Origin: a virus
IMG/VR virus record: IMGVR_UViG_3300045973_001495
Span: 1 to 52,924 of that record
Reading direction: 5' to 3' (one strand)
Length of the DNA stretch: 52,924 nucleotides
In this document: in pieces, positions 12,900 to 34,327 of the stretch
Position numbering within the stretch: the stretch's first letter is position 1
Layout of the letters: each line of letters opens with the position of its first letter
Notes under the pieces: model-generated
The model's database searches: none
What the model was told of the DNA's origin: nothing
Seen by the model: only the letters and a program-made list of their open reading frames with translations
Program-made: the position numbers and the translations under genes

Positions 12900-12957
12900 C
12901 GACAAAACACCCACTTGGGGCGACAAGACATTTTAGCGCATGTTAGCGATTAGATAA
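12900..12957 (-). promoter_or_regulatory. Candidate late promoter with initial-transcript hairpin (unit 3)
   Basis: Minus strand: TAAAAT at 12935-12930 as -10, with only a weak -35 (TTATCT, 16-base spacing). It is followed after 4 bases by TGTCGCCCC-AAGT-GGGTGTTTTGTCG-type sequence forming a short hairpin at the probable RNA 5' end. The same arrangement is found at 25447-25504 and 33153-33208. The resemblance among the three supports it more than the -35 does. Confidence 0.4.
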
Positions 12958-14149
12958 GGTTTTTCTGCTGCATGATTCGCACCAAATCCGCTCTTTGTTT
13001 TATTAGTTCCATAGTTTTTTCGGGGTTCTGTTGATTCGCTTGAATAGATGCGTCCACATTCTTTAAAGCCTGTTTATAGGAATCAATAGTGCGCTGGCGC
13101 TCTTCTGGACTCTGCGGAACTTGCGGATCGACCGAGGCGGGCTTAGGTGCTACGGGGGCGGGCTTCGCCGCCACCGGCTGCGCTGCTGCCAGTAATCCAG
13201 CCTGCACAGGCTTAGGCGCTGTTGCTTGCTGTTGCTTTGGCGCTGGCATCTTGCCAGTAGCGACAAAATCGCTGGCTTCCAAGTCTGACAAGCCCGGATG
13301 GTCGGCCTTGGCTTTGGATATTTTTGCGGCAATATCATCACGAGCTGAAGCGGGTGGCTTCCCTGTGCCTGCCTGCGTCAAAGGTGAATATGTGCCGTCG
13401 GCATTAATCCGCACGGTTTCTTTTACAGTTACCGGCTTACTAAGATCGTCTTTAACTTGCTTATCAATGGTTTGAATCCTAAAGCCAGCATCGCGGGCAG
13501 TTGGAGTTAAGAAGGCGGTGAAGTCCTTGCCCTTCGTGGCCGCACTATCCACAAGGTTTTTCAACTCCTTTTTCTCTTCCAAAGTACGCTCACTGGTGGG
13601 AATCGAAGAGATTTCAGCGATCCGCGACTTCATCTTGATCGCTTCAGTGTTGTCGAACTTGTCTTGGGCCTCTTTCTTGCGACGATCCCCCAACTCAGCC
13701 CAGCCAAGTGCTTGACTTGCTTTTGTGCGTTGAATATCAAACTTACTCTTGATTGCTTCTTCAGCCTCTAGCTTAGAAAGCCCGTTCTTCATTTCAAGAG
13801 CAATGGCGTCTTGGTACTCTGGCGTTTTCTTGAACTCAAGTTCTGCGCGCTTCCCATCAAGAGTGCGTTTGATTTCTTCCTGCGCCTTCCCGGCACGCAT
13901 CGCAACTTGCGTTGGATCGTTCCAAACCTTTTGACTAGCACCAGCCTCAGCCATCGCGGTTGTTTCTGCCTTCTTGCCCGCATTGTCTAGGTCAAACTGA
14001 AGCGCCCATTGCTTTTCGCGCTTCACCTGTTCAAACAGTGCTTCGCGTTCCAGTGCTTTGCGGTCTGCATCCTGCTGCTCACGATTCTGGCGAACGTACT
14101 CACCTGTTGCGCCGGTTGCTGCTGCTAGCAATCCATCTAGGAAACTCAT
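12950..14149 (-). CDS. Probable internal (ejection) virion protein, coiled coil
   Basis: This 399-residue protein begins with a short hydrophobic Ala/Gly segment (FLDGLLAAATGATG) and continues as a highly charged helical region to about residue 220, rich in KxxE and QxxD patterns. An extended Ala/Pro/Lys linker follows at about 290-350, then a C-terminal helix. This composition is typical of podovirus internal core proteins. It is coupled by ATGA to the 159-residue gene and is the last gene before the giant polyvalent gene. No enzymatic motif is visible. Confidence 0.6.
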   Translation of the reverse strand: MSFLDGLLAAATGATGEYVRQNREQQDADRKALEREALFEQVKREKQWALQFDLDNAGKKAETTAMAEAGASQKVWNDPTQVAMRAGKAQEEIKRTLDGKRAELEFKKTPEYQDAIALEMKNGLSKLEAEEAIKSKFDIQRTKASQALGWAELGDRRKKEAQDKFDNTEAIKMKSRIAEISSIPTSERTLEEKKELKNLVDSAATKGKDFTAFLTPTARDAGFRIQTIDKQVKDDLSKPVTVKETVRINADGTYSPLTQAGTGKPPASARDDIAAKISKAKADHPGLSDLEASDFVATGKMPAPKQQQATAPKPVQAGLLAAAQPVAAKPAPVAPKPASVDPQVPQSPEERQRTIDSYKQALKNVDASIQANQQNPEKTMELIKQRADLVRIMQQKNLI

Positions 14150-14625
14150 TTGACTGATCCTTTACCAAACTGAACCATATGTTGCGCCATCACGGTTGCA
14201 CGCTGCGCGGTTTGCTTCATTTCGCTCGCATCAATCAGCTTTGCTTTCAGCACAAAGCGCATCAGGCTAGCAATCGCAATAGCGCACAACTGCACCAAGC
14301 TATTTTCATCCAGCTTCGCGCCGCCTAATTGCGCGCTCACAAGGTTGGATGCAGCTTCGGCCATTTCCATTTCAAGATCGCCCTGCCCATCTGTTAGCGT
14401 TTTGATAACGGCGTCTGGTATATGGTCAAGTGCGCGCTCTACATTGGCGGCGTACTGCTTGATTTTCTGATTACTCAGCGCTTGCCCAGCAAAATCGCCG
14501 CTTGCCTCTTGCTGTTCTGTTGCTGGCGTTTCGTGCGCTTCCATCGCCTGATCTTCGTTTGCGTCGTCCGCATCTTCAGGTTGCGCGCCTTGCATTGCGG
14601 CCAATAGGCCGGAGTTGATAGCCAT
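14146..14625 (-). CDS. Hypothetical internal virion protein
   Basis: This 159-residue protein has an acidic, Gln-rich N-terminus (about 1-50) followed by predicted helices ending in an Ala/Met-rich hydrophobic stretch (CAIAIASLMRFVLKAK, about 110-126). Its start GLLAAMQGA resembles the LLAAA starts of neighbours. It is preceded by the 166-residue gene at a 9-base gap and coupled downstream by ATGA. Family not recognised; a virion or assembly role is inferred from location. Confidence 0.55.
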   Translation of the reverse strand: MAINSGLLAAMQGAQPEDADDANEDQAMEAHETPATEQQEASGDFAGQALSNQKIKQYAANVERALDHIPDAVIKTLTDGQGDLEMEMAEAASNLVSAQLGGAKLDENSLVQLCAIAIASLMRFVLKAKLIDASEMKQTAQRATVMAQHMVQFGKGSVK

Positions 14626-14634
14626 ATAAGCCCC

Positions 14635-15135
14635 TTACTTCTTGAAGTAATCAGAATTAACAAAGCGGCTGGTATCCAATCCACCAAGCCCACGGCGTTT
14701 CGCATATTCCTCATAACTGAGTTTTTGCATTTCCTTCGCTTGCTGCAATGCGGCCTCTTGCGCCTTAGTTGTCGCCTTATCTTTCTGGTAGCCATTAAAT
14801 GCACTGAGCAACCCTTGTCCAATAATCCCCTTGCTGCTTGTGCTTAGGCCATTGATTAGGGAAGAGCCGCCTTTCCAGATTTGGTCAAAGATGCTGCCGG
14901 TTTCATCAGAAATGGGCGTGCGGGTAACGTCTTCGTTTGTGTACTGGTAATCAAGGTTAGGACTGCCATCTGGAACTATTTTCTCAAGCCCGTAACCGTC
15001 CTCTTCGCTTGGTGCAATGCTGCCATCTGGCAACACGATTTCGCCATCTTCGTTTATCTTCCACCCGGCAGGGAGCCAACTGGAATCATTGTCTTCCACT
15101 GTGTTGTCGCCATCTGATTCGTTCATATCAACCAC
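14635..15135 (-). CDS. Hypothetical internal virion protein
   Basis: This 166-residue protein has an acidic N-terminal third with a WxxPxGWxxxxDGEIVLPDGS pattern, a Ser/Gly middle, and a basic, Gln-rich helix at about 110-150. Its start overlaps the end of the 557-residue gene by 8 bases. It lies within a block of five genes that probably encode the ejected core. No known domain seen. Confidence 0.55.
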   Translation of the reverse strand: MVDMNESDGDNTVEDNDSSWLPAGWKINEDGEIVLPDGSIAPSEEDGYGLEKIVPDGSPNLDYQYTNEDVTRTPISDETGSIFDQIWKGGSSLINGLSTSSKGIIGQGLLSAFNGYQKDKATTKAQEAALQQAKEMQKLSYEEYAKRRGLGGLDTSRFVNSDYFKK

Positions 15136-16801: not shown

Positions 16802-16803
16802 GA

Positions 16804-19878: not shown

Positions 19879-20131
19879 TAGAGGTGTCCCCCTTCATTAC
19901 TGACTTCGCGCCAACAGAAACGCCACCAACACCGATTAACATGCTCATGTGCTGCAAATACTGGCCCAGCGTGGCAATGTCGAGATGCAACTGCCCCATG
20001 TAAATGCCTGCGGCTGCGGCTGCGTGATAGGTGACGTTTGCTAGACCTGCTGCAAGGCGAACGGGGCAAAAACTCTCCCCGTCCGGCTCGGTAAACATGT
20101 CGCGGAACATCTTTCGAATGACGGCGAGCAT
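19853..20131 (-). CDS. Probable holin
   Basis: This 92-residue protein has a short charged cytoplasmic-type start, then two hydrophobic segments at about 25-47 (LAAGLANVTYHAAAAAGIYMG) and 58-78 (LQHMSMLIGVGGVSVGAKSV). Size, two membrane segments and position between the endolysin and the spanin genes fit a holin. No specific holin family is recognised. The stop overlaps the start of Rz, so the lysis genes are probably coupled. Confidence 0.6.
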   Translation of the reverse strand: MLAVIRKMFRDMFTEPDGESFCPVRLAAGLANVTYHAAAAAGIYMGQLHLDIATLGQYLQHMSMLIGVGGVSVGAKSVMKGDTSNAGTVDSQ

Positions 20132-20133
20132 GA

Positions 20134-20535
20134 TTACCCCTTTAGCTGGAAATGCGGCATTTCACGGAATGGTGCGGACGGTGCGCCGTACCAATTCAAG
20201 CCCAAATCCATCCCGATTTTTCCGGCTTTCTGCCAGTCGGGTGACTTGCCTTCGCCGTCATACTTGCCATTGAGAAGCACTCCAATATCGAACGCCTTCG
20301 CGGCTGGTTTGCCTTGTGCGTCGGTATTGTTGTGCGCGGATTGGCCTGCTCTAGCGCGGGTTACGATTGCCCCCGGCTTCGTCCTGCCTTGGTCGTAAAG
20401 CGCGTTCTGCTCGTCGCCGCTTCGGTAAGTACACACCAAAAAAACGTGCAAACCGTCAGCGTCACAACGGCGCATAAACTCCGTTGCCAGCGGTTGCAAG
20501 TCTTTGTGTAAATCTTCAATTTTTCGGGATGACAT
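20134..20535 (-). CDS. Endolysin, L-alanyl-D-glutamate peptidase (M15 family)
   Basis: This 133-residue protein is a compact M15-type peptidoglycan peptidase that cuts the peptide stem. Zinc-binding motifs are visible: SAHN at 66-69, AFDIG at 81-85 (D83) and PHFQ at 127-130 (H128), the same order as in phage T5-type endolysins. A TYRS..EQ..LY segment (36-47) is also typical of the VanY-like fold. No signal peptide is visible, so release should depend on the holin. The start lies 20 bases inside the upstream membrane-protein gene. Confidence 0.85.
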   Translation of the reverse strand: MSSRKIEDLHKDLQPLATEFMRRCDADGLHVFLVCTYRSGDEQNALYDQGRTKPGAIVTRARAGQSAHNNTDAQGKPAAKAFDIGVLLNGKYDGEGKSPDWQKAGKIGMDLGLNWYGAPSAPFREMPHFQLKG

Positions 20536-21028
20536 GTTCGTTCGCCTCCTGTGCTTTGATGCGATCTGAGAGCGTGCGCAGGTACACTTCCATCTCGCGT
20601 TCGCGCCGGTCGGTTTCGTCTAACTTGTCGGCCACGCGCTGCACCTGCATTGGTATTTCCATGAGCGGGTCGATGTTTGTTTTAACCACCCAGCCAGCCA
20701 AGCCGAATAGCACGACACCAAGCGCCAGTGCGCCTTTAACCCAATTGATGTAGCCGGTGTTGTCCAGCATTAGGCCGGTCAGGTTGTCCGACTGAGAATC
20801 AAGCGCGTCGCGCAATTCCTTAATCTCCTTGAATGCTCGGCCAGTCGCGTCGGCGTTATTGGTAGAGCGCTCTTCGATTAAGGTGATCTTTTGCAAGATT
20901 TCCCGGATGCCTGCCAACTCGTCCTTAACGTCTCGGGTGTGGGCGATGACATAACCAATTTGCCCCTCGATTGCGCCAAGGCGGGCGTTGGTGTCGGCAC
21001 TACGGATTGCTGCGCTGTCTTCGTTCAT
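20516..21028 (-). CDS. Membrane protein with coiled coil in the lysis cassette
   Basis: This 170-residue protein has helical charged segments at about 10-85, a single hydrophobic segment at about 98-120 (WVKGALALGVVLFGLAGWVV) and a second charged helix to the end. I chose the ATG at 21028 because it forms an ATGA overlap with the preceding stop; an in-frame upstream ATG would add 11 residues. Such proteins lie next to endolysins in many phages and may be holin-like or antiholin-like. The role is unproven. Confidence 0.65.
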   Translation of the reverse strand: MNEDSAAIRSADTNARLGAIEGQIGYVIAHTRDVKDELAGIREILQKITLIEERSTNNADATGRAFKEIKELRDALDSQSDNLTGLMLDNTGYINWVKGALALGVVLFGLAGWVVKTNIDPLMEIPMQVQRVADKLDETDRREREMEVYLRTLSDRIKAQEANEHVIPKN

Positions 21029-21486
21029 GCTCTTTTCCCGCTGGTTTTGTCGATAATCCACAGGTGATCAGGCGCAACGATCTTCAGCGCTTCGGGTCGG
21101 TAGGTGACTAAGCCAGCACCTAGAAATGCCCACAAAATCAATTCCGAACAAACCCACTGTAAAAGGCTCTGCCAATCAGGCCGATGCAACAGGTAGCCGA
21201 AAATCCAGCGCACGTCATACGGCTTGCCAATCTGGCTGCGCGCCAAGGCAAGCGCACGGTCTGCGGTTTGCAGATCGCAATCGAACTCTCGAAACGCGAC
21301 TTCTTCAGCGCGCATACAGAACTCATGCAGCGGGGTTTCAACCACGCCATGCGGCCAAGTCGCCTCGATAACCGTGTCAGTTTCTGGATCGTATAAAGCG
21401 CAGTGCGACCAGTGCGAATGCGTAAGCCATCGGATGGCATAAGAGCCGATCTTGCTGGATCGGCTGAAGTAGACTTTTAGTGCCAT
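21025..21486 (-). CDS. Papain-like cysteine peptidase (YiiX/NlpC-type)
   Basis: This 153-residue protein has the circularly permuted papain-like order: HSHWSHCALY at 23-32 supplies the His, E42 lies in VIEATWPHGV, and CSELI at 113-117 supplies the Cys nucleophile. Phage relatives of this group occur near lysis or tail genes and may cut peptide cross-links during entry or lysis. That link is inferred. It precedes the membrane-protein gene by ATGA overlap and is separated from the 129-residue gene upstream by a terminator. Confidence 0.7.
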   Translation of the reverse strand: MALKVYFSRSSKIGSYAIRWLTHSHWSHCALYDPETDTVIEATWPHGVVETPLHEFCMRAEEVAFREFDCDLQTADRALALARSQIGKPYDVRWIFGYLLHRPDWQSLLQWVCSELILWAFLGAGLVTYRPEALKIVAPDHLWIIDKTSGKRA

Positions 21487-21499
21487 TTTGAGCGCCCAT

Positions 21500-21522
21500 T
21501 AAAAAACCGCCCGAAGGCGGTT
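21500..21522 (-). terminator. Rho-independent terminator before the lysis cassette
   Basis: A 7-bp perfect stem (AACCGCC / GGCGGTT) with a UUCG loop on the minus strand, followed by a T-run. It lies between the 129-residue gene and the peptidase gene and would reduce transcription into the lysis genes unless antiterminated. Confidence 0.8.
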
Positions 21523-21540
21523 GGTTGTCGTTGGTATCGT

Positions 21541-21930
21541 CTAGACCGGCTGCACCAGCCCTTTAATGTGTCGCTCGTAATCAGTCGTGTGCGTATTCAG
21601 TAGCGCATCGGCTTGAGGCTGGGATAACAGCGCCTTGGATACAAGAATGCCAACGGCCTGCGCCACATCTGCACGCTTGAGGTCGATATATTGGCGCACA
21701 GTAGAATCCTTGACGATTGCCTGTACGAGCGCATCACTACTAGCCAGAATCGCTAGCTTTGCCGTGCCGAAGCGGTCGAAGAAGGGGCCAATGTCGATAT
21801 GCCAATACTGCGGGTCTAGGTTTGCATCAGTCCAATGCGGCGCAACTGTTGGCCGGTTAATCTCACGGTGCAATTCGTTGTCGTTGTCGTCGAACGTCAC
21901 CAAGTATTCGCCAATTTGTTCTGTTCTCAT
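21541..21930 (-). CDS. Hypothetical phage protein
   Basis: This 129-residue protein has an acidic N-terminal half (about 1-45, including TFDDNDNELHREINRP) and a helical C-terminal half. It resembles small proteins encoded after tail-fibre genes that act as fibre caps or chaperones, but I recognise no family. It follows the 154-residue structural gene after 9 bases and is closed by the terminator at 21500. Confidence 0.55.
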   Translation of the reverse strand: MRTEQIGEYLVTFDDNDNELHREINRPTVAPHWTDANLDPQYWHIDIGPFFDRFGTAKLAILASSDALVQAIVKDSTVRQYIDLKRADVAQAVGILVSKALLSQPQADALLNTHTTDYERHIKGLVQPV

Positions 21931-21939
21931 GGTGGCCTC

Positions 21940-22974: not shown

Positions 22975-24745
22975 GGTCTTGACCTCGCGGTGTCCAGTAA
23001 ATGCCGACCGCTGAAACAGCGAATGGCTTGGTTTTAGCGTTGTTGTAAATCAGTAAACCAATGTTCGTGCCGACGCCGCTGATGTAGATCGTCGCTTGGT
23101 TGGCTGCCGCACCGTCCCAGCTAAAGGCGTCCCACGCTGCGCTATCCCAATAGCCGCCGACTGCGCGCACGCCACCCGCGCTCACGATGTCTGCGCCCGT
23201 CCCGTAATTGAATTCAGGCGCGACGGAAAGCGTCAGTGCGTTGATCGTTTGCACTTCAATCTTGAGTTTGTGGAAGCGCTTGCGCTGGGCTTGTGAGCCG
23301 ATGGCGTTGAATGGCAGGCGCAGGATGGATTCGATTACCGCGCCGTCCTGCGAGTCGCCCTTGTCCAGCTCGTAAACGAAGCCATCGCTTGCACCCAGCC
23401 AAGTGCGCTCAGTGCCGGTCGAGTCCTCGCCGCACCAGCCGCATACGAATTGGTGCGCGTACTTGGCAGTGCCGAAGCCCTGCGCTTGTGCGCCTTGCAT
23501 CGTGCCGACGAGTGCGGTCTTGTCCGTGAAGAACAAGATGTACCGGCCAGTCCTGCGCTGCATGATGGTGAAGGCGGGCGTCTGGCGCTGAAAGATGGAT
23601 TCAACTTTTTTGCTCAGTGTCGCTTGGCTGAAGTCGCCATACGTCTGCGCAGCTTGCAGAGACATAATCCCTGCATCGTCCTGCGCAATGACGTCAGCGC
23701 CCACGTTCTGCGCGGTGTCTGGCAGCGCACCGGCTTGCCGGTTAAATGGCTTCATTTCCCAATTGGCATTGGAATTGCCATACATCAGGTAAATCGAGTT
23801 GCGGCCATAGGCGGCAACCGTGTCTTTGGTTTCGATGACGTTGGTCAGCGTGTCGCCTAGACCAATCTCAAACGAGCCGAGGCGTGGCGAGAATAGGCCG
23901 GGGTTGCCGACTGCGCTGTTCTGAAGCGAGCCGCCAGCGAAGCCCAGCCACAAGTAGAAGCCACGAATCGCAATGTGCGCAGGCTTATCAACCGCCATGC
24001 CAGACACAAGCGGCGTTAGGTAAGTGCCGTCAAACTCAACGGCAGGGTTCTGGCCGTCAACGTAGTACAGCCGCACCTTGTCAGCCGAGCCGTAGAAGTT
24101 GGATATGCGCGAACGGATATACCCGCCCGGTGCGAATGTCGGTGTGGTCAGCGCGCCGGTGCAGACTGCTTTCTGTGCCGCGCCAACGAAGATAAGATCA
24201 GTGTTTGCCCAACTACCAGTAACACCAGTGACGTACAAGCGACCAGTCGCTTTAGTGCCAGAATCCCACGAGCCATAGGCCGAAACGCGAACGACCGTTG
24301 CCGTTTTCGTAGGCGATGCGCCGAGATTGCCAATTGTGTCACCTTCAAATATTTGGATCGTGCCGGTATTGAACGGGATGAACTGCGTGGCGGTGACTGC
24401 TACCCAGCCGCCCGCCGTTGCCTTGTGCATGACTAGCGCCGTAGCGCCAGCGTTGTCACGCCATGCGTACAGCGTTCCGTTGTAATACGCCACGCCACGA
24501 ACAGGCCCGGAGCCGGGTACTGCTGCAATGGCGGTGCGCAGGGTTTCTTGTGTCGCTTCGACTGACGAGCTAGATGGCGCGGTGCGCCCGTCAAAGCGCT
24601 CGTACTGCCCAATCTGGATATACCCGCCCGTGAGTTTCTGAGCGTAGTTCTGCATCACCAAAGCAGCGCCGGGCGGCACGAACAGCGGTGCTGTCGTGTA
24701 GTCCAAGCCGCCGTTTAGTGAGACATAACTTAGCTTCTGGCTCAT
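22967..24745 (-). CDS. Tail hub / stabilisation protein (podovirus tubular-B or P22 gp10-like)
   Basis: This 592-residue protein is built of repeated beta-blade-like segments, with many short GxxxYAWRD, VYELDKG and similar turns. That and its place directly after the adaptor match podovirus tail-hub or stabilisation proteins, such as T7 tubular protein B and P22 gp10 in role. I placed the start at 24745, where ATGA overlaps the adaptor stop; an upstream alternative would add 13 residues. The assignment is by order and pattern, not by a unique motif. Confidence 0.7.
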   Translation of the reverse strand: MSQKLSYVSLNGGLDYTTAPLFVPPGAALVMQNYAQKLTGGYIQIGQYERFDGRTAPSSSSVEATQETLRTAIAAVPGSGPVRGVAYYNGTLYAWRDNAGATALVMHKATAGGWVAVTATQFIPFNTGTIQIFEGDTIGNLGASPTKTATVVRVSAYGSWDSGTKATGRLYVTGVTGSWANTDLIFVGAAQKAVCTGALTTPTFAPGGYIRSRISNFYGSADKVRLYYVDGQNPAVEFDGTYLTPLVSGMAVDKPAHIAIRGFYLWLGFAGGSLQNSAVGNPGLFSPRLGSFEIGLGDTLTNVIETKDTVAAYGRNSIYLMYGNSNANWEMKPFNRQAGALPDTAQNVGADVIAQDDAGIMSLQAAQTYGDFSQATLSKKVESIFQRQTPAFTIMQRRTGRYILFFTDKTALVGTMQGAQAQGFGTAKYAHQFVCGWCGEDSTGTERTWLGASDGFVYELDKGDSQDGAVIESILRLPFNAIGSQAQRKRFHKLKIEVQTINALTLSVAPEFNYGTGADIVSAGGVRAVGGYWDSAAWDAFSWDGAAANQATIYISGVGTNIGLLIYNNAKTKPFAVSAVGIYWTPRGQDRG

Positions 24746-25398
24746 GCTAGCGGGTTCTGTTGTAGCGTGATTTCGCCCAGCCAAGCCGAGCGGATTTCCG
24801 CAATGGATTTGGCGTGCATGGATTGTGCCGACTGATACAACTCAGTAGCGCCGTCATTCATCGCGTAAGACATCACGGCGCGGTACACAATCGCCAAGCA
24901 ATCGACATCATCCAGAATCGGTGCATCTAGGTCGTTGACCAGTGGTGTCGATTTCTTGAAGTAGTCGATGTAAACCGGATAAATCGCGTCCGGTATGTTG
25001 TTGAACTTGACGGAACGCGTGCCGGTTACGGTGTAATAAGTGGGCGCGACATTGAGCGGGGTGTTGTAGTCGTACTCTGCTCTAAAGTCGGTGTAAGGTA
25101 GGAAGCCGAGAGGCTGGTTGCCGGTCGGAAGAGTGATTAGGGCAAATTCCCTATCGGCTTCCCGAAACAGTGGCGCATTCATCTGCGCCGAGGTGTAGGT
25201 TTGCTGCCCGATAACGGTATTGAATGCTGCCCGCTCGCGCATGAAACCCCAAGGGGCTTCAACTTGGATGCCGTTCCACGCGTCAACCGTCCATTGCTTG
25301 AGTTTGGCATTGATGCCGCTTAGGCCGTTTACGGACGTGATGGCCCCTTCTGTCCCTGATTCCAGCTTCACGCGCTGCAAGATTTCAAGGAACGTCAT
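24742..25398 (-). CDS. Head-tail adaptor protein (gp4/tubular-A-like)
   Basis: This 218-residue protein begins TFLEILQRVKLESGTEG and contains LKQWTVDAWNGIQVEAPWGFMR, both typical of podovirus adaptors that bind under the portal. The C-terminal half holds the IYPVYIDYFKKSTPL and LAIVYRAVMSYAM segments seen in this class. The ATG at 25398 is preferred because the reading before it (four residues) enters the terminator/leader region. It is the first gene of the second late unit and is coupled to the tail-hub gene by ATGA. Confidence 0.75.
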   Translation of the reverse strand: MTFLEILQRVKLESGTEGAITSVNGLSGINAKLKQWTVDAWNGIQVEAPWGFMRERAAFNTVIGQQTYTSAQMNAPLFREADREFALITLPTGNQPLGFLPYTDFRAEYDYNTPLNVAPTYYTVTGTRSVKFNNIPDAIYPVYIDYFKKSTPLVNDLDAPILDDVDCLAIVYRAVMSYAMNDGATELYQSAQSMHAKSIAEIRSAWLGEITLQQNPLA

Positions 25399-25412
25399 AG
25401 CGGCCACCAAAT

Positions 25413-25444
25413 AAAAAAGGCCACCCGGTTAAGGATGGCCTTTT
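25413..25444 (-). terminator. Terminator in the leader of the adaptor gene
   Basis: A stem of nine perfect pairs at the base (AAAAGGCCA / TGGCCTTTT) with an inner partly paired loop, then T-run on the minus strand. It lies about 26 bases after the predicted start of the 25477 promoter, between the 97-residue gene and the adaptor gene. Confidence 0.85.
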
Positions 25445-25446
25445 AA

Positions 25447-25504
25447 CGACAAAAACGCCCGTAGGGCGACATGAAGATTATAGCCGAATTTAGCCTTCTA
25501 CCAA
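25447..25504 (-). promoter_or_regulatory. Candidate late promoter with initial-transcript hairpin (unit 2)
   Basis: Minus strand: a perfect TATAAT -10 at 25482-25477 with TTGGTA 16 bases upstream as a possible -35. Five bases downstream, TGTCGCCC-tac-GGGCGTTTTTGTCG forms a hairpin at the expected 5' end of the RNA. The copy at 12900-12957 has the same -10, hairpin and terminator order. Confidence 0.55.
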
Positions 25505-25783
25505 CTGAATTAAATACTTGGGCGAGTAAATATCTTTCTCACCTGTCTGGTCGCGGCGAACTTCTTTCAGACTGCGCAGCATTTCGTAATCCTCGCGCCT
25601 GATCTTCGCCTTTTCACCACGCTTGATGACGTTGGAAGCAATCGCATTGACGGCATAAACCACGTCGTCATTGTTGTACTTGTCTTCGCCAATCAGCACG
25701 GTGACGTAATCGTCGCCCTTGCGGGTGCGCTTGGTGGTAATCAGGCCAGCTTGTTCGGCAGCTTCTTGCATTTCGTTTGACAT
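25490..25783 (-). CDS. Small hypothetical head-region protein
   Basis: This 97-residue protein is highly charged, with KTTRK-type basic patches and a GEDKYNNDDVVYAVNAIASNVIKRG segment predicted to be alpha/beta. Its short ATG-proximal region overlaps nothing, and it is the last gene before the unit 2 promoter. Position after the capsid genes suggests a small head or scaffold accessory protein. No family recognised. Confidence 0.55.
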   Translation of the reverse strand: MSNEMQEAAEQAGLITTKRTRKGDDYVTVLIGEDKYNNDDVVYAVNAIASNVIKRGEKAKIRREDYEMLRSLKEVRRDQTGEKDIYSPKYLIQLVEG

Positions 25784-25786
25784 TTT

Positions 25787-25954
25787 TTAATCCCCTTGTT
25801 TGGCAGGTTTGGATTTGGTTGCTTTGGGTGCAGGCGCGCCATTCTCGGCGTCTGCATAGGCTTGGGCTGCTTCCGGGCTGGTGTGGATCAACACGCCCAC
25901 AGCGCCGCCTTCGTAGTGCTTGGTGGTTTTGAGGCCATCGACTTCAACTGACAT
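25787..25954 (-). CDS. Short acidic/Ala-rich phage protein (55 residues)
   Basis: This 55-residue frame begins MSVEVDGLKTTKHYEGG and ends in an Ala/Lys/Pro tail. A GGGAG ribosome-binding site lies 8 bases before the ATG, and the gene fills the gap between the 177- and 97-residue genes. Short proteins with this start pattern are common after capsid genes in phages of this type. It may be a head-completion or decoration accessory; this is not demonstrated. Confidence 0.6.
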   Translation of the reverse strand: MSVEVDGLKTTKHYEGGAVGVLIHTSPEAAQAYADAENGAPAPKATKSKPAKQGD

Positions 25955-25970
25955 TTTTCAAACTCCCATA

Positions 25971-25999
25971 AAAAAGGCGAGCCACCGAAGTAGCCCGCC
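25971..25999 (-). terminator. Terminator with UUCG tetraloop
   Basis: A 10-bp stem (including two G-T pairs) closed by a UUCG loop, with TTTTTT following on the minus strand. It lies between the 177-residue structural gene and the 55-residue gene. Confidence 0.8.
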
Positions 26000-26038
26000 G
26001 TAAGTGCATTCCGCTGCCGCAGTTTGCTAAAAGGTTGA

Positions 26039-26572
26039 TTAAGGTTGCGAAGCAGCAGGCAACATCGCCACATCAACGAAGGTTGACGTCACGCCAGCAG
26101 CATCAAACAGGGTTGTACCGATCACGAAGTTAGCACCGGAGGCGTTCACGACCTTGATGTAGCCAAACGGGGTGAGGCCATTTGGCACATCAGGCAGGAA
26201 CGATTTACCGACACGCGCTGCATTGGTGTTGGTGGTTGGTGCGCTGGTGATGGTCGGGCTGTTGAACACTTGGCCGTCATACTCGCCTTGCACAGCGTAA
26301 GGCGTACCAGCGCTGTCCAGTGCCAAAACGATGTAGCAGGTTTTAGCGGTAGGGATAGGCTGGAAGGCCAACGTGCCGGGGGCGGCTGCCAGTGCTTGCG
26401 AAGTCATTGCTGCCTTCGTTGCTGGGAAAACGCCACCATTCAGGTAGGTGATGACGTTGGCAGTGTTGAAGCCAGACTTTACCGTACCAATTGCCAAGCC
26501 AGCCTTGGACAAGGTGATGTTGCCAACGAGTTCGCGTAGCGACTCTTCAAAGGCGTCATTAAGTTTTGCCAT
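26039..26572 (-). CDS. Phage structural protein after the capsid gene
   Basis: This 177-residue protein has beta-rich composition with many Thr, Ala, Asn and Gly. It reads FEESLRELVGNITLSKAGLAIGTVKSGFNTAN at the start. Its place directly after the major capsid gene and lack of enzymatic motifs suggest a capsid decoration or structural accessory protein. Specific family not recognised. Confidence 0.6.
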   Translation of the reverse strand: MAKLNDAFEESLRELVGNITLSKAGLAIGTVKSGFNTANVITYLNGGVFPATKAAMTSQALAAAPGTLAFQPIPTAKTCYIVLALDSAGTPYAVQGEYDGQVFNSPTITSAPTTNTNAARVGKSFLPDVPNGLTPFGYIKVVNASGANFVIGTTLFDAAGVTSTFVDVAMLPAASQP

Positions 26573-26600
26573 GATTTTAAATCTCCAAAAGAAGTAAAAA

Positions 26601-26620
26601 CGCCCCCGCTCGGAGGGCGC
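26601..26620 (-). terminator. Terminator after the capsid gene
   Basis: A GC-rich hairpin (CGCCC / GGGCG core) followed by TTTTTAC on the minus strand, immediately after the major capsid stop codon. Confidence 0.75.
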
Positions 26621-26626
26621 TAGTTA

Positions 26627-27631
26627 TTACAAGGTGACGGCAGTTTCGACGCGGGTGAGCCAAGCCTCGTTGGTGATGAAGAATTTAGCCCAGTAGTCGA
26701 TAGCAACCGAACCGCGTTGACCGTGGCGGTCAGTGTCGGAAGGCGTGCCGGGACGGCGAACCTTTGGCGTCATCTGGTTCATGCCCTTCAGTGCGATGCT
26801 ATGCACTGCGTTTTCGCCCAAGATGACCAGCGGGTAAACGGCAGCATTGGCGGCGGTCGTATCATTCGGGATCATTGCGCCAACTGCACCGCCCTTATTG
26901 GCATCGCCTTCAAATGGCAACAGCATTGGGGTGGTGATGAAACGCATGTTTTCCACGGAACCGAACTCGTAATCAACTTTGCCCGAGCCGCTACCGTATT
27001 CCGAAACGTGAACGAAGCCAGCTAAGGCACGAATGACCGGCTGTACGTCTGTGTGACAGAAAACGTAGTAAGCCTTTTCGATTGGTGCAGTGCCGATGTT
27101 CAGGCCACCATCCAGTTGCTTACCGATCATGCGGGCGCGGTTACGCATCAACAGGCGTACTGCTTTACGCAATGTGGTCAACGAAACTTCAGTATTCACC
27201 GCTGCACGGGATGCACCGTTAGCGTAGAAAACTTGGTTGCCGTTGGTCATGGTTTGCCATGCCAGCCATTCAAGCGATTCAGCAGCTTGCTGGGACAGCA
27301 GGTTAGGCGCGTCCGTGAAGATTTCACGGTCAAGCAGGTTGGCTGCTTTGTCGGTTACAACAATGTTCGCGCCGTACTGGTCAATCGTGGCGGTCACATC
27401 GCGGTAAGTGAGTTGCTGGGCGGTTGGCGTGACGCCTTCAGCCATTGGGGTTTTTAGAACACCAAACAAGTTAGGCGCGGACACTTTGACGGTATCGGTG
27501 CTGTTCTTGTCCAAAGGGATTGGCGTGGTGAACTTGCTCAGTACGCAGATTTCGTCGGCGGTCTTAAGTGCATTCTTGATGAACTGCAAGCCTTGCCCGC
27601 TGGTGATGTCACCGTAGGTTGAGATAGCCAT
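26627..27631 (-). CDS. Major capsid protein, N4-gp56 family
   Basis: This 334-residue protein has the hallmarks of the N4-gp56 family of HK97-fold capsid proteins: a YGDITSGQGLQFIKNALK start, LTYRDVTATIDQYGANIVVTD in the first third, a RNRARMIGKQLDGG segment, and YYVFCHTDVQPVIRAL. It follows the scaffold gene and precedes small head genes. The virion should assemble from hundreds of copies. A terminator sits on each side, so its level may be set by processing or antitermination. Confidence 0.88.
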   Translation of the reverse strand: MAISTYGDITSGQGLQFIKNALKTADEICVLSKFTTPIPLDKNSTDTVKVSAPNLFGVLKTPMAEGVTPTAQQLTYRDVTATIDQYGANIVVTDKAANLLDREIFTDAPNLLSQQAAESLEWLAWQTMTNGNQVFYANGASRAAVNTEVSLTTLRKAVRLLMRNRARMIGKQLDGGLNIGTAPIEKAYYVFCHTDVQPVIRALAGFVHVSEYGSGSGKVDYEFGSVENMRFITTPMLLPFEGDANKGGAVGAMIPNDTTAANAAVYPLVILGENAVHSIALKGMNQMTPKVRRPGTPSDTDRHGQRGSVAIDYWAKFFITNEAWLTRVETAVTL

Positions 27632-27655
27632 TTTTTAATGCTCCAGAAATGAAAA

Positions 27656-27674
27656 AACCCGCTCTAGGCGGGTT
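27656..27674 (-). terminator. Terminator between scaffold and capsid genes
   Basis: A 7-bp perfect stem (AACCCGC / GCGGGTT) with a 5-base loop and a T-run on the minus strand. Confidence 0.8.
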
Positions 27675-27683
27675 GTTTGTTTG

Positions 27684-28550
27684 TTAGCGTCGGGCGAGGC
27701 GGCGTTGCCGCTCATCCTCACGAACGAGCGCATTCCATGCGGCTTCAGCATCGCCCTCGTCCACCACGGTTACGGGTGTCACGCGGGACTGAACGCCAGC
27801 CGCTGCTTGTAACTTCTGCTGCTTCGTGGCTGTGACGGATTGCTGTAATGCCTTCCGGTCAGCTTTGAAGCGGTCAAATACATAGTTGATGTCGCTCGGC
27901 TCCCAGCTATTCACTGCTTGCCGAATCACTTGCGGTTGTTTGCCAAGCCACTCGTCGAACACAGGTGAAGCGGTCACTTCGCGCCAGTCAGGGTGCTGCT
28001 GATCGACTTGGCTAATGCCAGACTCAATCACCGCCTGATGCTGTGCGACTCGCTGCGCGTTGTACTGATCCTGTAGAGGCGCTAGGCGCGTCTGCAACAT
28101 CTCTTCAACTCGCTTATCAACTGAGCCAATTCGTTTCTCTAAAACTTCCGCTATTTGCGGGTAGTCCTCACGCAGCGATGCAATGAGCTTCGCGTCCTCG
28201 TCATCGGGAGGCGATTGCACCTTCTGCTGTGCTGATACCACTTGAAGCTGCTGCTCCATTTCAGCGATACGCTTCTGGTATGCGGCTTGCCGTCCTGCTG
28301 CTGAACGCTCCCGCTGTAAAGCGGCCTCTCGTTCCTTGCGTGAAGTAAGGACTTCTTCACGAAGCGCATCCGGCAAAGCGGCCAGCGGATCAACTTCAGT
28401 CGCGGCAACTTCTTGGGTGCTTTCTGTCTGGCTCTCGCCAGTCGGTAATTCGTCTTCTTCGTCTGGCACGGTGGCACGCGCATCTTCAGCGGCCATCTCG
28501 TTCCAAGCGGCTTCTAAGTCTTCAATCTGTTCGGCAGCTTCTTGGCTCAT
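27684..28550 (-). CDS. Probable scaffolding protein
   Basis: This 288-residue protein is acidic at the start (EEDELPTGESQTEST) and then strongly helical and charged, with a coiled-coil-like run at about 75-150 (REAALQRERSAAGRQAAYQKRIAEMEQQLQ). It ends with basic residues (DERQRRLARR). Position between portal and capsid genes and this acidic-helical-basic layout are typical of capsid scaffolds. No protease domain is seen. Confidence 0.75.
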   Translation of the reverse strand: MSQEAAEQIEDLEAAWNEMAAEDARATVPDEEDELPTGESQTESTQEVAATEVDPLAALPDALREEVLTSRKEREAALQRERSAAGRQAAYQKRIAEMEQQLQVVSAQQKVQSPPDDEDAKLIASLREDYPQIAEVLEKRIGSVDKRVEEMLQTRLAPLQDQYNAQRVAQHQAVIESGISQVDQQHPDWREVTASPVFDEWLGKQPQVIRQAVNSWEPSDINYVFDRFKADRKALQQSVTATKQQKLQAAAGVQSRVTPVTVVDEGDAEAAWNALVREDERQRRLARR

Positions 28551-28567
28551 TTTGAGTACCCATAAAA

Positions 28568-28592
28568 AAAGCCGCCTCTAATGGGCGGCTTG
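28568..28592 (-). terminator. Terminator before the scaffold gene
   Basis: A 7-bp perfect stem (AGCCGCC / GGCGGCT) with 7-base loop and a run of T on the minus strand. Confidence 0.8.
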
Positions 28593-28607
28593 TGGTTGGA
28601 AAAGCGG

Positions 28608-28820
28608 TTATTCGTAGTTTGTGACTGGTTCAACCGGCTCGGCTTCGGCCCGTTGCTGTAGGGCTAGCAGGTCATCGAAGGCGGCAACTCGGCCTCGTAG
28701 CATGTTGGTTGATTCAATGCCATGCGGCTGGGCTAGCGCGTAAAGCGTGGCGAGCTTTTCGTTTAGCAACCACTCTTCAATGGCTGCCCATGTTTCAGTC
28801 TTGAACAGGCTGGCTTGCAT
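28608..28820 (-). CDS. Small hypothetical protein between portal and scaffold
   Basis: This 70-residue protein is helical, with many Leu, Ala and Glu. Its ATG overlaps the portal stop (TAATG), so it should be translated by coupling. Podoviruses often carry a small gene here, but no family is recognised. Confidence 0.55.
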   Translation of the reverse strand: MQASLFKTETWAAIEEWLLNEKLATLYALAQPHGIESTNMLRGRVAAFDDLLALQQRAEAEPVEPVTNYE

Positions 28821-31141
28821 TAGATGCCACTCCCTTGGCTGCGCTTGATGGCGGCTTCAGCGTTAAACAGTCGGCTCTTCATATCCCAATCAATCGCCTG
28901 CATCTTCAGCGCCTTCTGTGCTTCGATAACGGTCATATCCTTGCTTGCGGCGATTTGCAGCATCGCCAAGCGCTCGGCACTCGCCAGCTTCTCCATTTCA
29001 CCGCGCTGCTTCATCGCCTCGCGTTGTAGGTCAAGCTGTGAGTCGTTGACGATGGCGTTGGCCTTGATCTGCTCGGCTTGCGCTTTGAATCGCTCAATCT
29101 CCATGCGCTGTTGCCGCTCTTGGGTATCAAGTTGGAATCGTTGCTGTTCCATCGCCAACTCGGCTTGCTTAACCTGCGCATCAAGTTGACCGCGTTGCGC
29201 GTCAATCTGCATTTGTTGCTGGGCAAGTTGCAGCTTGCCTTGCTCAATCTGTACCTTGATCTGCTCAGGGTTAGGCTGTTGCTGTTGTTGCTGCGCAGCC
29301 TGCGCCAGCTCTTCCGGTGACTTCACAATGCCGTCAGCGGTGATCTGCGCGCCCTTGACGATCTGGCGTTGCAGCTCATCCCAGTTGGTTGCCTGTGCGA
29401 ATGGCGGGATGGATGCGAACAGTTGGGACATATTGATTAGGTTTTGCTGCTGCTGTTCACGCATGACCAGCGTGCTAGAGCCAAGCGCCACGATGTCATA
29501 GTCGCCCTTGATCTCCGGCTTATCGCTGAATTCCATGTTCCATCGGTACATGCGGCCAATGACGGGCCGGGTAATGCGGTCGTCCCATTGCTTCACCAAG
29601 CGACGCAGCGGGCTGGAAGCGCTCGATGCCTGAAGGCTCGCACCCGTGGCCGTCTGCGTGATGATTGGATTCTGGCCTTCCTGCTGCATGATTTCCGGTA
29701 CGCCAGATTCTTGCTCTAGCAGAATCACTGCACGGTCGAACAGGCCAAGCAGCATGTCGGCTTGAAGCGGTATCTGTACCGGCTGGATCGGGTTTTGTGA
29801 TGTGGTTGCGCCGGGGATGCTTTCCCATATCTTGCCGGGGGCCAGTTGCATGCGGCCATCTTGCGGGCGCAAACCCTTGTCAATGACGATGTTCGGCACG
29901 GCAGCCAAGGCCGCATTGTCCAGAATCAAGCGCCAAGTCGAGTTAGCCACACGCTGCGAGTGACGCACGCGGTACGGCATGCCGAAACCAAAGATAGAAT
30001 GGTCGTCTTCTTCCCAGCAAAAGATGCTGTAAATGCTGGCATCGTCTGCATACGGGTGTTCCGCTGCCTTCAGCACGATCCCGTTGCAGAACCAGATAAT
30101 CAGGTGCGGCTCGTCCAGCGAGTCGGATTCAATCTCAATGCCGAGCGCCTGTGCGTCATCAGCAGGTAAGCAGCCATTGAATTCCCACACCTCATACCGG
30201 CCAGACTTCCATGTCGATGTCTTGTCGATACGGGCGTCATCCATGAAGCCAGCGACGCGCTCTTCAGGCGATTCCTTCAGCAGCTCCTTGATGGCCGCAC
30301 GACTGAAGCCCGGTGTCTTGGCTAGGTCTTTCAGTTCCTTGCGCGTCAACAGGTGGCGTTCAAGTGTGTTCTCGGATTCCTCAATGCGACGGGCCGACGG
30401 ATCGGGAAAGAAGTGCCAAGGCGAAACGCGATCTACACCTGGCTTAATGCTTTCCTCAATCACGATGTTCTGGGTTTCAACACCCATCTCAACAGCGCGC
30501 TGAATCTTCTTTTTGCTCACGTTGCGCAGCGTGGGCGATTTCATAATGCCGGTGCCAAGCACAATCGCGTCGTGAATCACGCCACGGCAAACGGCGTTGT
30601 AATCAGATTCGGTTAGCTGGTCGTCAATCTCACGCAGCATCGACAAGGCGCGTTTGTCTGCCTCTTTCTGGCGTGCCTCGTTAGGATCAACCGGCGCAGC
30701 CTGTGGCTGTGGCTGTGGCTGTTGCGGCTGGCCTTGTGGTGGCTGTTGCATGCCCATCGCGGGTGGCATCTGTGGCGCGCTGTGCTGTGCCAATGACTGC
30801 GCAATATCAATGTCAGCCATCGGCGTTGGTTTGATAGACCAGTTGCGGTCGTCGGTCGGCAACAGCATTTCAGCAAGGCGGGATTCCGCAAACGTACACT
30901 TCTTCCGCGTCAGGTTCACGAACGCCTGTGAACGTCCCGCACCAATCTGCGTTTTGCTGTCGTACTCACCATTCCACTGGCGCAGGTCGTCTAGCCACCG
31001 CTGTTCGAGCGTGCTGCGTTTGGCAACTCGCTCGTCTGCAATCCCCTGCAAGCGCTCACCAATCGCCTCGACGAGCATTTGTTGCTCGCGTTGCTGCTCT
31101 TCTGCGGCGTAGTCGTCCATCGGGGCGTCAGTAGCCTGCAT
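28820..31141 (-). CDS. Portal protein
   Basis: This 773-residue protein forms the dodecameric portal through which DNA is packaged. It has the features of large podovirus/P22-like portals: an acidic and Gln/Pro-rich insert at about 135-160, MLREIDDQLTESDYNAVCRGVIHDAIVLGTGIM, a VSPWHFFPDPSARRIEE segment, and a Gln-rich coiled coil in the last 180 residues. The ATG at 31141 is chosen because an AGGTG site lies 6 bases upstream; a GTG at 31150 would add three residues. The start lies inside the end of TerL. Confidence 0.85.
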   Translation of the reverse strand: MQATDAPMDDYAAEEQQREQQMLVEAIGERLQGIADERVAKRSTLEQRWLDDLRQWNGEYDSKTQIGAGRSQAFVNLTRKKCTFAESRLAEMLLPTDDRNWSIKPTPMADIDIAQSLAQHSAPQMPPAMGMQQPPQGQPQQPQPQPQAAPVDPNEARQKEADKRALSMLREIDDQLTESDYNAVCRGVIHDAIVLGTGIMKSPTLRNVSKKKIQRAVEMGVETQNIVIEESIKPGVDRVSPWHFFPDPSARRIEESENTLERHLLTRKELKDLAKTPGFSRAAIKELLKESPEERVAGFMDDARIDKTSTWKSGRYEVWEFNGCLPADDAQALGIEIESDSLDEPHLIIWFCNGIVLKAAEHPYADDASIYSIFCWEEDDHSIFGFGMPYRVRHSQRVANSTWRLILDNAALAAVPNIVIDKGLRPQDGRMQLAPGKIWESIPGATTSQNPIQPVQIPLQADMLLGLFDRAVILLEQESGVPEIMQQEGQNPIITQTATGASLQASSASSPLRRLVKQWDDRITRPVIGRMYRWNMEFSDKPEIKGDYDIVALGSSTLVMREQQQQNLINMSQLFASIPPFAQATNWDELQRQIVKGAQITADGIVKSPEELAQAAQQQQQQPNPEQIKVQIEQGKLQLAQQQMQIDAQRGQLDAQVKQAELAMEQQRFQLDTQERQQRMEIERFKAQAEQIKANAIVNDSQLDLQREAMKQRGEMEKLASAERLAMLQIAASKDMTVIEAQKALKMQAIDWDMKSRLFNAEAAIKRSQGSGI

Positions 31142-32690
31142 AAGAATCACCTATGTATTGTTCTGCGCGTGCGGCAGTCGGGAAGATTTCGCGCTCGCGG
31201 CGTACCACGGCGTTGAAGGGAAGTGCGAAGGTCAGCGCTAACGCGTCCCCTGCATCGGGTGACTTGATGCCACGCTTGCGCATGTCATCCTTGGTTTCGA
31301 GCTTGACGCGCCCGTGGCTGTCATAGCTGTAACTCGGTGCGCTCAGGTCAGCGGCCAGCGTGTCATCGTTGGTGATCTTGGTCGGCTGGGCGTTTATCCA
31401 GTCACGCATCAAGCACCACATTTCAGACCGACGATTGACGTACTTGTCAGCCGATAGCGCCTTTTCACCGAAGTTAACGCCAAAGACGTTTTCGTAATTC
31501 AGCTCGTGCAAGCGATCAACTACGCCAGCGCCCAGCCCGCCAACGTCAATCAGGACGGCGTCTGGCTTGAATTCCTTGGCGTACTGGTGAACCACGCCCA
31601 CAACCTGCATCGTTGACAAGCCGTTGACGCGCTTTAGGTCAAGCATCTTGCGACCTTGACGAACCACAATGGCTGTGGAGTCATCACCATACCGCGCAGG
31701 ATCGACGCCAATCAGCACGGGTGCCGTCAGTGTTTCCTCGTCAATCTCAGCCCGGCGAGCGGTAGCGATGGCATCGGCTTTGATTAGGCTCGTGTCATCC
31801 GAGGCCATGAACGCTTCGGAGGCGTCGCTTGGGTACTCACGCATGAACTTTTCAACGTCACCGCCGAAGTCGCCTTCGATTTTTGAGCGACGCCACGCCA
31901 TATGCTCAGGCGTCATGCCGTCAGCTAGGTAGCGAGACAGGTAATCAACTTCATCAGCGGTCAAGTCGCTATCAAGCGGGCGGGTGTATTCAGCCTGCCA
32001 GTACCAAGGCACAAACACAGCGATGTAATCACCTCGCCCAGCTTGTGCGTCCTGCCAGCGTTGGTGAAACTCGTCGCCTACTTTGTTCGCGGTAGATTCA
32101 AGGATGACTTCCGTATCAGGCATTTCAGCAATGGCCTGACCAATGCCTGAAAAGTGTTCGTCTGCTTTGTCCCAGAAGCCGAACTCAGAACCGTGCAGCA
32201 TTTGCGCAGTCCAGCCACGGCCAACAGCGTCAGAACCAGCGGTTGCCACGCGGTAGCCACAATCTTGCTCACCGAATTCCAGTGTGCCGGATGCATCGCG
32301 GGTGATCTTGGGGCGGATAATCTCAGGGATGTTTTTGGCGTAGCGCTGCACCATGCCGAAGATGGCGGCAGTAGAAGCGGCTTGGTGCGCCATCACGACC
32401 GCTTTGCGGCCGATGTTCCAATGGAGCGTCCACAGGAACCGCGCTTCAACGTAAGTCGAAACGCCTTGTTGCCGCCCCTTCAGGATCAAGGCCCGAACGC
32501 GGCCAGTTGTGCGCTTCTGCTCTTCGAGTTTGGCGTGTATGTAGTGTTGTGCTTTGTTAAGCCGCAGTGGGACTTGTTGACCGCGCTTGTCAGCGATCTT
32601 GAGGCACAGGCCAGCGTATTGCGCGAAGTTGCCAGACAGGCGACGCGCCAACTCAAGCGCGTCTGTATCGCTACTCTTCGCTTGGCTCAT
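31128..32690 (-). CDS. terL: Terminase large subunit
   Basis: This 520-residue packaging motor has an N-terminal ATPase with KGRQQGVST at 71-79 (Walker A-like) and EVILESTAN as the coupling segment. A C-terminal RNase H-type nuclease begins with GVDPARYGDDST (D330), its first acidic catalytic residue. It drives ATP-dependent filling and cutting of concatemeric DNA with TerS. The start lies inside the end of TerS, and its stop overlaps the portal start. Headful packaging is likely for this class but cannot be read from the sequence. Confidence 0.9.
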   Translation of the reverse strand: MSQAKSSDTDALELARRLSGNFAQYAGLCLKIADKRGQQVPLRLNKAQHYIHAKLEEQKRTTGRVRALILKGRQQGVSTYVEARFLWTLHWNIGRKAVVMAHQAASTAAIFGMVQRYAKNIPEIIRPKITRDASGTLEFGEQDCGYRVATAGSDAVGRGWTAQMLHGSEFGFWDKADEHFSGIGQAIAEMPDTEVILESTANKVGDEFHQRWQDAQAGRGDYIAVFVPWYWQAEYTRPLDSDLTADEVDYLSRYLADGMTPEHMAWRRSKIEGDFGGDVEKFMREYPSDASEAFMASDDTSLIKADAIATARRAEIDEETLTAPVLIGVDPARYGDDSTAIVVRQGRKMLDLKRVNGLSTMQVVGVVHQYAKEFKPDAVLIDVGGLGAGVVDRLHELNYENVFGVNFGEKALSADKYVNRRSEMWCLMRDWINAQPTKITNDDTLAADLSAPSYSYDSHGRVKLETKDDMRKRGIKSPDAGDALALTFALPFNAVVRREREIFPTAARAEQYIGDSYAGY

Positions 32691-33090
32691 TGCCTTTCAG
32701 TTGGGTAAGCAACGTGGTGAAGCCGCTGATCTTCTCGCCATCACTGGTGACATCCAGCTTGTCGCCGTAGACCTTGGGGCGCAGTTTGCCTGCGCGCCAT
32801 TTCAGCACGTCAATCAGCAGGCGCTTTGCTTGCGCGTTTTCTGCCGTTGTCATGCGTGCTTCTTCAAGCATTTCTTCAGTCAGCAGGTCAGCCTGCGCCA
32901 AACGCGCGCGTGTGTACCTGTCGGCCAAGGCGGCATCTTCACTCAGCCAATCGCACACGGTTGAGTAATGCGGCATGCCTTCAGTGCGCAAGATTGTCGT
33001 CAATGCTTCACCTTGTGCAATGCGCGCAATGATCTTCTCAAAGACCTCTTCGCGGTTGTAAGACGTTGACCGAACCTTAGCCACTTCCAA
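32671..33090 (-). CDS. terS: Terminase small subunit
   Basis: This 139-residue protein recognises the packaging site and loads TerL. Its N-terminal half contains a helix-turn-helix of terminase small subunits (IIARIAQGEALTTILRTEGMPHYSTVCDWL, about 20-50), followed by an oligomerisation helix (about 70-105) and LRPKVYGDKLDV, typical of this group. It is the first gene of the late unit after the promoter at 33180 and a terminator. Confidence 0.85.
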   Translation of the reverse strand: MEVAKVRSTSYNREEVFEKIIARIAQGEALTTILRTEGMPHYSTVCDWLSEDAALADRYTRARLAQADLLTEEMLEEARMTTAENAQAKRLLIDVLKWRAGKLRPKVYGDKLDVTSDGEKISGFTTLLTQLKGNEPSEE

Positions 33091-33102
33091 ACTCCCAAAT
33101 GC

Positions 33103-33134
33103 AAAACGCCCCGACCAGTTAAGGGCGAGGCGTT
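33103..33134 (-). terminator. Terminator before terS
   Basis: A hairpin (AACGCC / GGCGTT, with an alternative inner CGCCC/GGGCG pairing) followed by TTTT on the minus strand, about 39 bases after the predicted start of the late promoter. It has the position of a lambda tR'-type terminator. Confidence 0.65.
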
Positions 33135-33152
33135 GTATTTTTTCAATGCAGA

Positions 33153-33208
33153 AACCGCCAACTTGGGCGGGATATTGAGTTTATAACTCAATCAGATTTT
33201 TTGTGCAA
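33153..33208 (-). promoter_or_regulatory. Late promoter with palindromic operator (unit 1)
   Basis: Minus strand: TTGCAC (33208-33203), 17-base spacer, TATAAA (33185-33180). The 17-base palindrome TTGAGTT-tat-AACTCAA (33175-33191) covers the -10, a likely regulator site. The hairpin CCGCC/GGCGG at the expected RNA 5' end resembles those at 12900 and 25447. Confidence 0.7.
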
Positions 33209-33213
33209 GTTAC

Positions 33214-33429
33214 TCAATGCAAACGATCCTCAAACTCTTCGGCCATCGCACAGACAATGGCCGTCGCTTCTCGCGCATCGTCTTTGGCTTCCGCCATGTA
33301 CTCCTTTTCATCGGCAATCAGCACTGAAGCGAATCTCAAGCAGTCATGCAGGGTATAGCCCAGCGGGTAGCTGTCACCCATCGCAATCTCAAGCCACATT
33401 TGCGCGGCGCTTTGGTCTTCTCTGGTCAT
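33214..33429 (-). CDS. Small hypothetical early/late-junction protein
   Basis: This 71-residue acidic helical protein (MTREDQSAAQMW...) uses the ATG at 33429, which overlaps the preceding stop as ATGA. A reading that starts five residues earlier is possible but would run into the upstream gene. It lies between the Q-like gene and the late promoter, where small unknown genes are common. Function unknown. Confidence 0.5.
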   Translation of the reverse strand: MTREDQSAAQMWLEIAMGDSYPLGYTLHDCLRFASVLIADEKEYMAEAKDDAREATAIVCAMAEEFEDRLH

Positions 33430-34287: not shown

Positions 34288-34327
34288 GGTTTCAATTACC
34301 CGTTACGAGTTAATGGTGTTTTGCACG

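Follow-up and report, generated by a model that had tools for sequence, protein, structure and literature searches.

Three homologous leader cassettes with late-promoter anatomy and a candidate Q-type antiterminator in a probably temperate phage

Introduction

A probably temperate phage appears to carry three homologous late-promoter leader cassettes, here called sites A, B and C, under a Q-type antiterminator encoded at 33548-33928, a reading to which we give a probability of about 0.58. The window, i.e., the whole stretch of DNA that was analysed, is the complete IMG/VR virus record of this phage (G000; 52,924 bases). We observe directly that the cassettes are copies, how each is built, and that the protein resembles Q in its sequence, its fold and its gene order. 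We consider the Q-type reading probable for site A and plausible for sites B and C and, judged from the DNA alone, three duplicated cassettes in one phage would be an unusual form of Q-type late control.

In the published Q systems considered here, Q loads beside a sigma-dependent pause, at one promoter or, in the case of AlpA, at two. Known Q proteins depend on a pause element that resembles a -10 and closely follows the transcription start (PMC9371919), the Q protein of phage 21 (21Q) has a sigma-region-4-like fold (PMC6606751), and both the AlpA element and the 21Q subsites occupy the region from about -24 to -13 (PMC7969949, PMC6606751). That one antiterminator can serve more than one promoter already has a precedent in AlpA of Pseudomonas aeruginosa, which acts at two (PMC7969949). 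The literature yielded no report of a phage with Q-type control and three late promoters of this kind, although this is weak evidence of absence as subscription journals were mostly outside the coverage.

Results

Organisation of the late region

The late genes are carried on the minus strand, in the order small terminase (TerS) of the Sf6 kind, large terminase (TerL), SU10-like portal and major capsid protein, followed by a connector, tail and lysis block. Beyond this block lie two large proteins of 2260 and 982 amino acids. An integrase-like gene, recognised from its sequence, is located at the right end of the window and points to a phage that is probably temperate. At the left end a late gene is truncated, its late-strand open frame at 1-420 (-) continuing past the end, so the record may be incomplete there and more late genes, perhaps with further cassettes, may lie beyond. 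The genes on which the argument depends are as follows.

33548-33928 (-): Q-like antiterminator candidate, 126 aa (profile, fold, synteny)
33090-32671 (-): TerS, the first gene after the site A terminator
6065-12847 (-): 2260-aa large polyvalent protein with LPD5 and LPD1 domains (domain matches)
420-3368 (-): 982-aa large polyvalent protein with LPD38 (domain match)

Elsewhere in the window, Rfam identified a C4 antisense RNA (63 bits) at 42550-42637 (+), just before a Bro-N antirepressor-like gene at 42685-43656 (+), and the string GCCAGTCTGCATAAGGCTTA is present twice, by eye, within a 236-nt intergenic stretch at 34288-34523.

Anatomy of the three sites

The initial annotation had described a -10 box, a hairpin and a terminator, in that order, at three minus-strand sites, with each terminator standing between the promoter and the first gene. 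Both the order and the position of the terminators were recovered at A, B and C, and each cassette sits in the gap before the next late gene. It had also described related hairpins with an AAGT loop; the hairpins are indeed related across the copies, but the AAGT loop is limited to A and C. Site A, at 33.1 kb, comprises:

33208-33203 (-): -35-like TTGCAC, 17 nt before the -10 (sequence)
33185-33180 (-): -10 box TATAAA, inside a palindrome (sequence, scan)
33191-33175: 7-bp perfect palindrome TTGAGTT-ATA-AACTCAA over the -10, unique in the window
33170-33155 (-): initial-transcript hairpin CCGCC(CAAGTT)GGCGG, CCGCCCAAGTTGGCGG (scan, folding)
33134-33105 (-): terminator with the loop CCCTTAACTGG, before TerS (scan, folding)

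Site B, at 25.4 kb, comprises:

25504-25499 (-): -35-like TTGGTA, 16 nt before the -10 (10/12 promoter match)
25482-25477 (-): -10 box TATAAT, preceded by GCTAAATTCGGC, which is partly common to site C (scan)
25468-25456 (-): initial-transcript hairpin CGCCC(TAC)GGGCG, CGCCCTACGGGCG, followed by TTTTTGTCGTT (scan, folding)
25444-25415 (-): terminator AAAAGGCCATCCTTAACCGGGTGGCCTTTT (scan, folding)

Site C, at 12.9 kb, comprises:

12957-12952 (-): -35-like TTATCT, weak, 16 nt before the -10 (sequence)
12935-12930 (-): -10 box TAAAAT, preceded by GCTAACATGCGC, which is partly common to site B (scan)
12922-12908 (-): initial-transcript hairpin CGCCC(CAAGT)GGGTG, CGCCCCAAGTGGGTG, followed by TTTTGTCGTTTCCGAA (scan, folding)
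12894-12868 (-): terminator, before the gene of the 2260-aa protein (12847-6065) (scan, folding)

The -35 of site A (TTGCAC) is weak, and its palindrome could be an operator. Site B is the best sigma70 match within 20000-36000. The spacing between the -10 and the hairpin is nearly equal at all three sites, the two stems of each site are 11-20 nt apart and a T tract follows the second stem throughout; at B and C the first hairpin itself also runs into 4-5 T. Upstream of the -10, B and C have GCTAA in common, and the pattern GCTA-N6-GCTA(A/T) occurs nowhere else in the window, where about one chance match is expected by our estimate. Taking the -10 as -12 to -7, this upstream element covers about -24 to -13. 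Its form GCTAA N5 GC is not clearly shared by A, and comparison of the three sequences revealed no Q-binding element common to A, B and C.

Relatedness of the sites

We scanned the window for a -10 box with at least 5/6 matches that has a hairpin 2-14 nt after it and a terminator 10-50 nt past the hairpin. There were three matches on the minus strand, exactly A, B and C, and none on the plus strand, compared with one match in total across 12 dinucleotide shuffles of the late 34 kb, a figure that flatters the sites because the criteria were set after they had been seen. Local alignment of B and C scored 81 (shuffles 21.6 ± 4.2; 0/1000 reached it), that of A and B 45 (0/1000) and that of A and C 37 (5/1000), while five other terminator gaps of the late region aligned with A, B or C at just 18-25. 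The background for A in a 34-kb search reaches 40, which makes the A-B score alone modest. An HMM built from B and C alone recovered A colinearly (E = 0.052 in 2.3 Mb), and besides B and C themselves the one better match was a bare terminator in locus L202. The likeness begins before the -10 and continues beyond the terminator. Furthermore, all three minus-strand instances of the motif CC(T)TAAC[CT][CG]G fall in the terminator loops of A, B and C (about one expected by chance, an estimate), several pairs of the terminator stems have changed on both sides with pairing kept (e.g., T-G in B, G-C in C), and folding of the transcripts is more favourable than that of shuffled sequence (z -2.4 to -4.4). 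Rfam gave no match at the three sites. Taken on their sequences, A, B and C are copies of one element.

The five gaps used for comparison contain terminators that the initial annotation had not listed. They have no -10 or promoter and no likeness to the cassette element.

28569-28591 (-): promoterless terminator in the late operon (sequence)
27656-27674 (-): promoterless terminator in the late operon (sequence)
26599-26621 (-): promoterless terminator after the major capsid gene (sequence)
25976-25999 (-): promoterless terminator in the late operon (sequence)
21505-21522 (-): promoterless terminator in the late operon (sequence)

To reach the distal genes, polymerase from A must pass all five, as would be consistent with processive antitermination. 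Terminators are likewise present in the late gaps of several related prophages.

The Q candidate

A sigma-region-4-like Q candidate just upstream of the late region had been proposed, and profile, model and synteny agree in placing there a remotely Q-like protein with a sigma-region-4 fold. By itself, the 126-aa protein has no match in Pfam or PHROG, and its matches in NCBIfam and PDB are weak and to sigma factors only. A search of 401 genomes from the single family to which a Polaromonas locus belongs gave the first remote relatives. A profile of six sequences then gathered a distinct group, most of it at E 1e-19 to 1e-52, with sigma factors set apart at E 1e-8 and weaker. The remote relatives number 17 and lie in Burkholderiales-type prophages. 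In the 18-sequence alignment W25, R81 and Y88 are kept, and 11 of the 18 members match phrog_79, 'anti-termination protein Q-like' (best 2e-5). Against PDB, the profile matched sigma region 4 (E 9.5e-4) and phage-21 Q (E 0.025).

The AlphaFold model has a pLDDT of 82.9, while a single-sequence fold was useless (pLDDT 39). Foldseek ranked sigma region 4 first for this model (E 0.018) and aligned the Q21 structures 6p18, 6p1a and 6p1c across some 145 columns; these have the top TM-scores relative to the query, 0.56-0.59 (E 0.17-0.66). The gene lies directly before the late region, its homology to Q being remote, and the same order of Q homolog, promoter-like DNA, terminator, TerS and TerL recurs in prophage G302. 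On profile, model and synteny together, the 33548-33928 protein is quite likely a Q-type antiterminator.

Leaders in related prophages

Directly 3' of about ten of the Q homologs there is a -35 of the TTG(C) type, usually 17 nt from a -10 such as CATAAT. Next come a hairpin and a GC terminator, joined by a linker resembling CGTCTCC(G)AAA. These leaders lie in Burkholderiales-type prophages (L160-L176 and L208:464-559). The TTGC(A) hexamer of the site A type, mostly 17 nt from the -10, also follows the homologs in L160, L161, L162, L168, L172 and L174. The hairpin is further from the -10 in the prophage leaders than at the window sites. The Q-type reading is well supported by anatomy, since several Q homologs are accompanied by promoter, hairpin and terminator and, in G302, by TerS and TerL as well.

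Nine of the leaders align with a common structure, and from these, leaving the window out, we built a covariance model (R1). It recovered a held-out leader, the one beside the Q gene of L208 (29.9 bits, E 4e-5). Its best match in the window was site C, at full length (15.4 bits, E 0.029), with other terminators next at E 0.05-0.3; searched alone, A scored 8.7 bits and B 3.5 bits, and the scores of all three sites are marginal. Kinship with the leader family of the prophage Q genes is thus at most suggested for site C. Rfam returned only tRNAs and weak chance matches for the prophage leaders, none of them credible.

Second cassettes were sought in related prophages by alignment (10 prophages), with R1 and by a promoter-terminator scan of 12 late regions, each covering about 11 to 40 kb downstream of Q, and none was convincing. 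The best alignments outside the leader lay in coding genes near the shuffle level and were rejected, the weak extra matches that we inspected were likewise inside coding genes, and the scan gave one candidate, in prophage G359b. Diverged copies could be missed, because even A and B in the window are only moderately alike. With no convincing second cassette in any of the 12 late regions, the initial view that three such promoters in one phage are unusual held up. In viral contigs, searches with the head-connector and Q proteins found no close relatives of the phage, and the DNA pattern of the B/C linker found nothing. Full-length TerL relatives are just ~34-49% identical to the phage TerL, and their 18 raw matches to the arrangement (four of them the window's own, one counted twice) were not above chance (shuffle mean 10.6).

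Discussion

From these features we infer transcription starts, Q loading, read-through and a role of the hairpin as follows. Site A would head the packaging and capsid block, B the connector, tail and lysis block, and C the giant 2260-aa protein and the fibre-side genes. At each cassette, host sigma70 polymerase would start about 1-3 nt before the small hairpin and, if unmodified, would stop at the terminator about 60-70 nt on. The 126-aa protein, as a Q-type antiterminator of the 21Q fold class, would load at or near these promoters, and the modified polymerase would resist the leader terminator and the five further late terminators. B and C would thereby provide extra loading and initiation stations for the distal blocks.

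This arrangement resembles that of Q and PR' of phage 21 (PMC6606751), where a small sigma-region-4-like protein is likewise encoded just upstream of the late promoter and a terminator precedes the first late gene; our model superposes on Q21 along its length (TMq up to 0.59). However, the window has three promoters rather than one, places a hairpin at the very start of the RNA, and shows neither a pause element at B and C nor a shared direct-repeat binding site at A. Both AlpA promoters also have an intrinsic terminator shortly after the start (26 bp at PA0807), and in both a binding element lies at one fixed position between the -35 and -10, similar to the placing of GCTAA N5 GC at B and C (PMC7969949, PMC9371919). 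In contrast to the window, the AlpA targets are chromosomal operons far apart, and B and C showed no counterpart of the -10-like pause element of AlpA (-1 to +5). The GafYZ system, which controls the Caulobacter gene transfer agent, is alike in its phage-like late cluster with promoter-proximal terminators and, in kind, in its binding element between the -10 and -35, but GafZ has one target promoter (PMC11150451). GafZ has been reported to be without sequence or structural similarity to known antiterminators (PMC11150451).

The sigma-dependent pause element, a hallmark of known Q systems, is a point at which the cassettes depart from them. No hexamer with 3/6 matches and A2 is present at B or C, and at A the pause-like hexamers are just CAATAT, AATATC and TATCCC (3/6). 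Either Q loading differs at these promoters and is aided, for example, by the first hairpin, or Q does not act at B and C, or the TATAAT and TAAAAT of B and C are themselves the pause element of a promoter slightly upstream. In the last arrangement GCTAAAT or GCTAACAT could be the -10, 10 bp away (the distance from pause element to -10 is 11 bp at alpB; PMC9371919), although no acceptable -35 fits. A His-type hairpin pause is not claimed, since the spacing from hairpin to Y-G step fits A only.

If B and C are not Q sites, A alone could be Q-dependent, with B and C as duplicated copies that now act as tandem terminators, insulators or weak constitutive promoters while Q-modified polymerase from A does most late transcription. 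We regard this as doubtful but possible. Only A adjoins the Q gene and has the TTGCAC, 17-nt promoter of the family, the relatives have one leader per Q-type system, and the 4-5 T directly after the first hairpin at B and C would suit such a role. Against it, B and C retain near-consensus -10 boxes and shared upstream bases, the blocks TGTCGCCC and TTTTGTCGTT are identical in both though the rest has diverged, and B ranks first among the sigma70 matches within 20000-36000. A stronger form of this doubt, that B and C have no promoter at all and are tandem terminators of upstream genes with chance -10-like hexamers, seems improbable. In its favour, AT-rich gaps often contain hexamers of this kind, C has a poor -35, and the -10 boxes of B and C are not independent because the two sites are related; yet the near-constant distance from -10 to hairpin, the conservation upstream of the -10 in B and C, and the absence of a -10 at the other five late terminators all argue against chance.

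Two further explanations assign the function to the RNA. The two-hairpin nascent leader might modify the polymerase by itself, without a protein, as in HK022, where putL and putR are two ~70-nt, two-stem elements at two promoters of one phage (PMC9378689). Two conserved hairpins directly after a repeated promoter recall this pair (PMC9378689), but put is protein-free, involves no Q-like gene and consists of two adjacent stem-loops without a terminator T tract. The window sites have a T tract on the second hairpin in all three cases, stems 11-20 nt apart, no Rfam match and a Q-like gene nearby, which leaves a put-like element rather improbable. Less likely still, each cassette might yield a terminated small RNA of ~60-70 nt that regulates late genes in trans. 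The promoter, folded 5' hairpin, linker and terminator, and the folding z-scores, would suit such an RNA, but the position before each late block is better explained by control in cis and no target is known.

Within the preferred reading of three cassettes under a Q-type protein, the departure from the pause element leads to a more speculative proposal, which we consider unlikely as it stands: a Q of a new sequence family would load via the initial-transcript hairpin, rather than at a sigma-dependent pause, at all three cassettes, so that polymerase is re-armed for each late block. More generally, three duplicated cassettes lacking the pause element would demonstrate that Q-type loading may be repeated at several positions within a single late operon, and they would be natural replicate sites for asking what Q loading needs. 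For the wider family, the analysis assigns to the Q-like class an unannotated protein group of Burkholderiales-type prophages, several members of which have a recognisable leader next to them.
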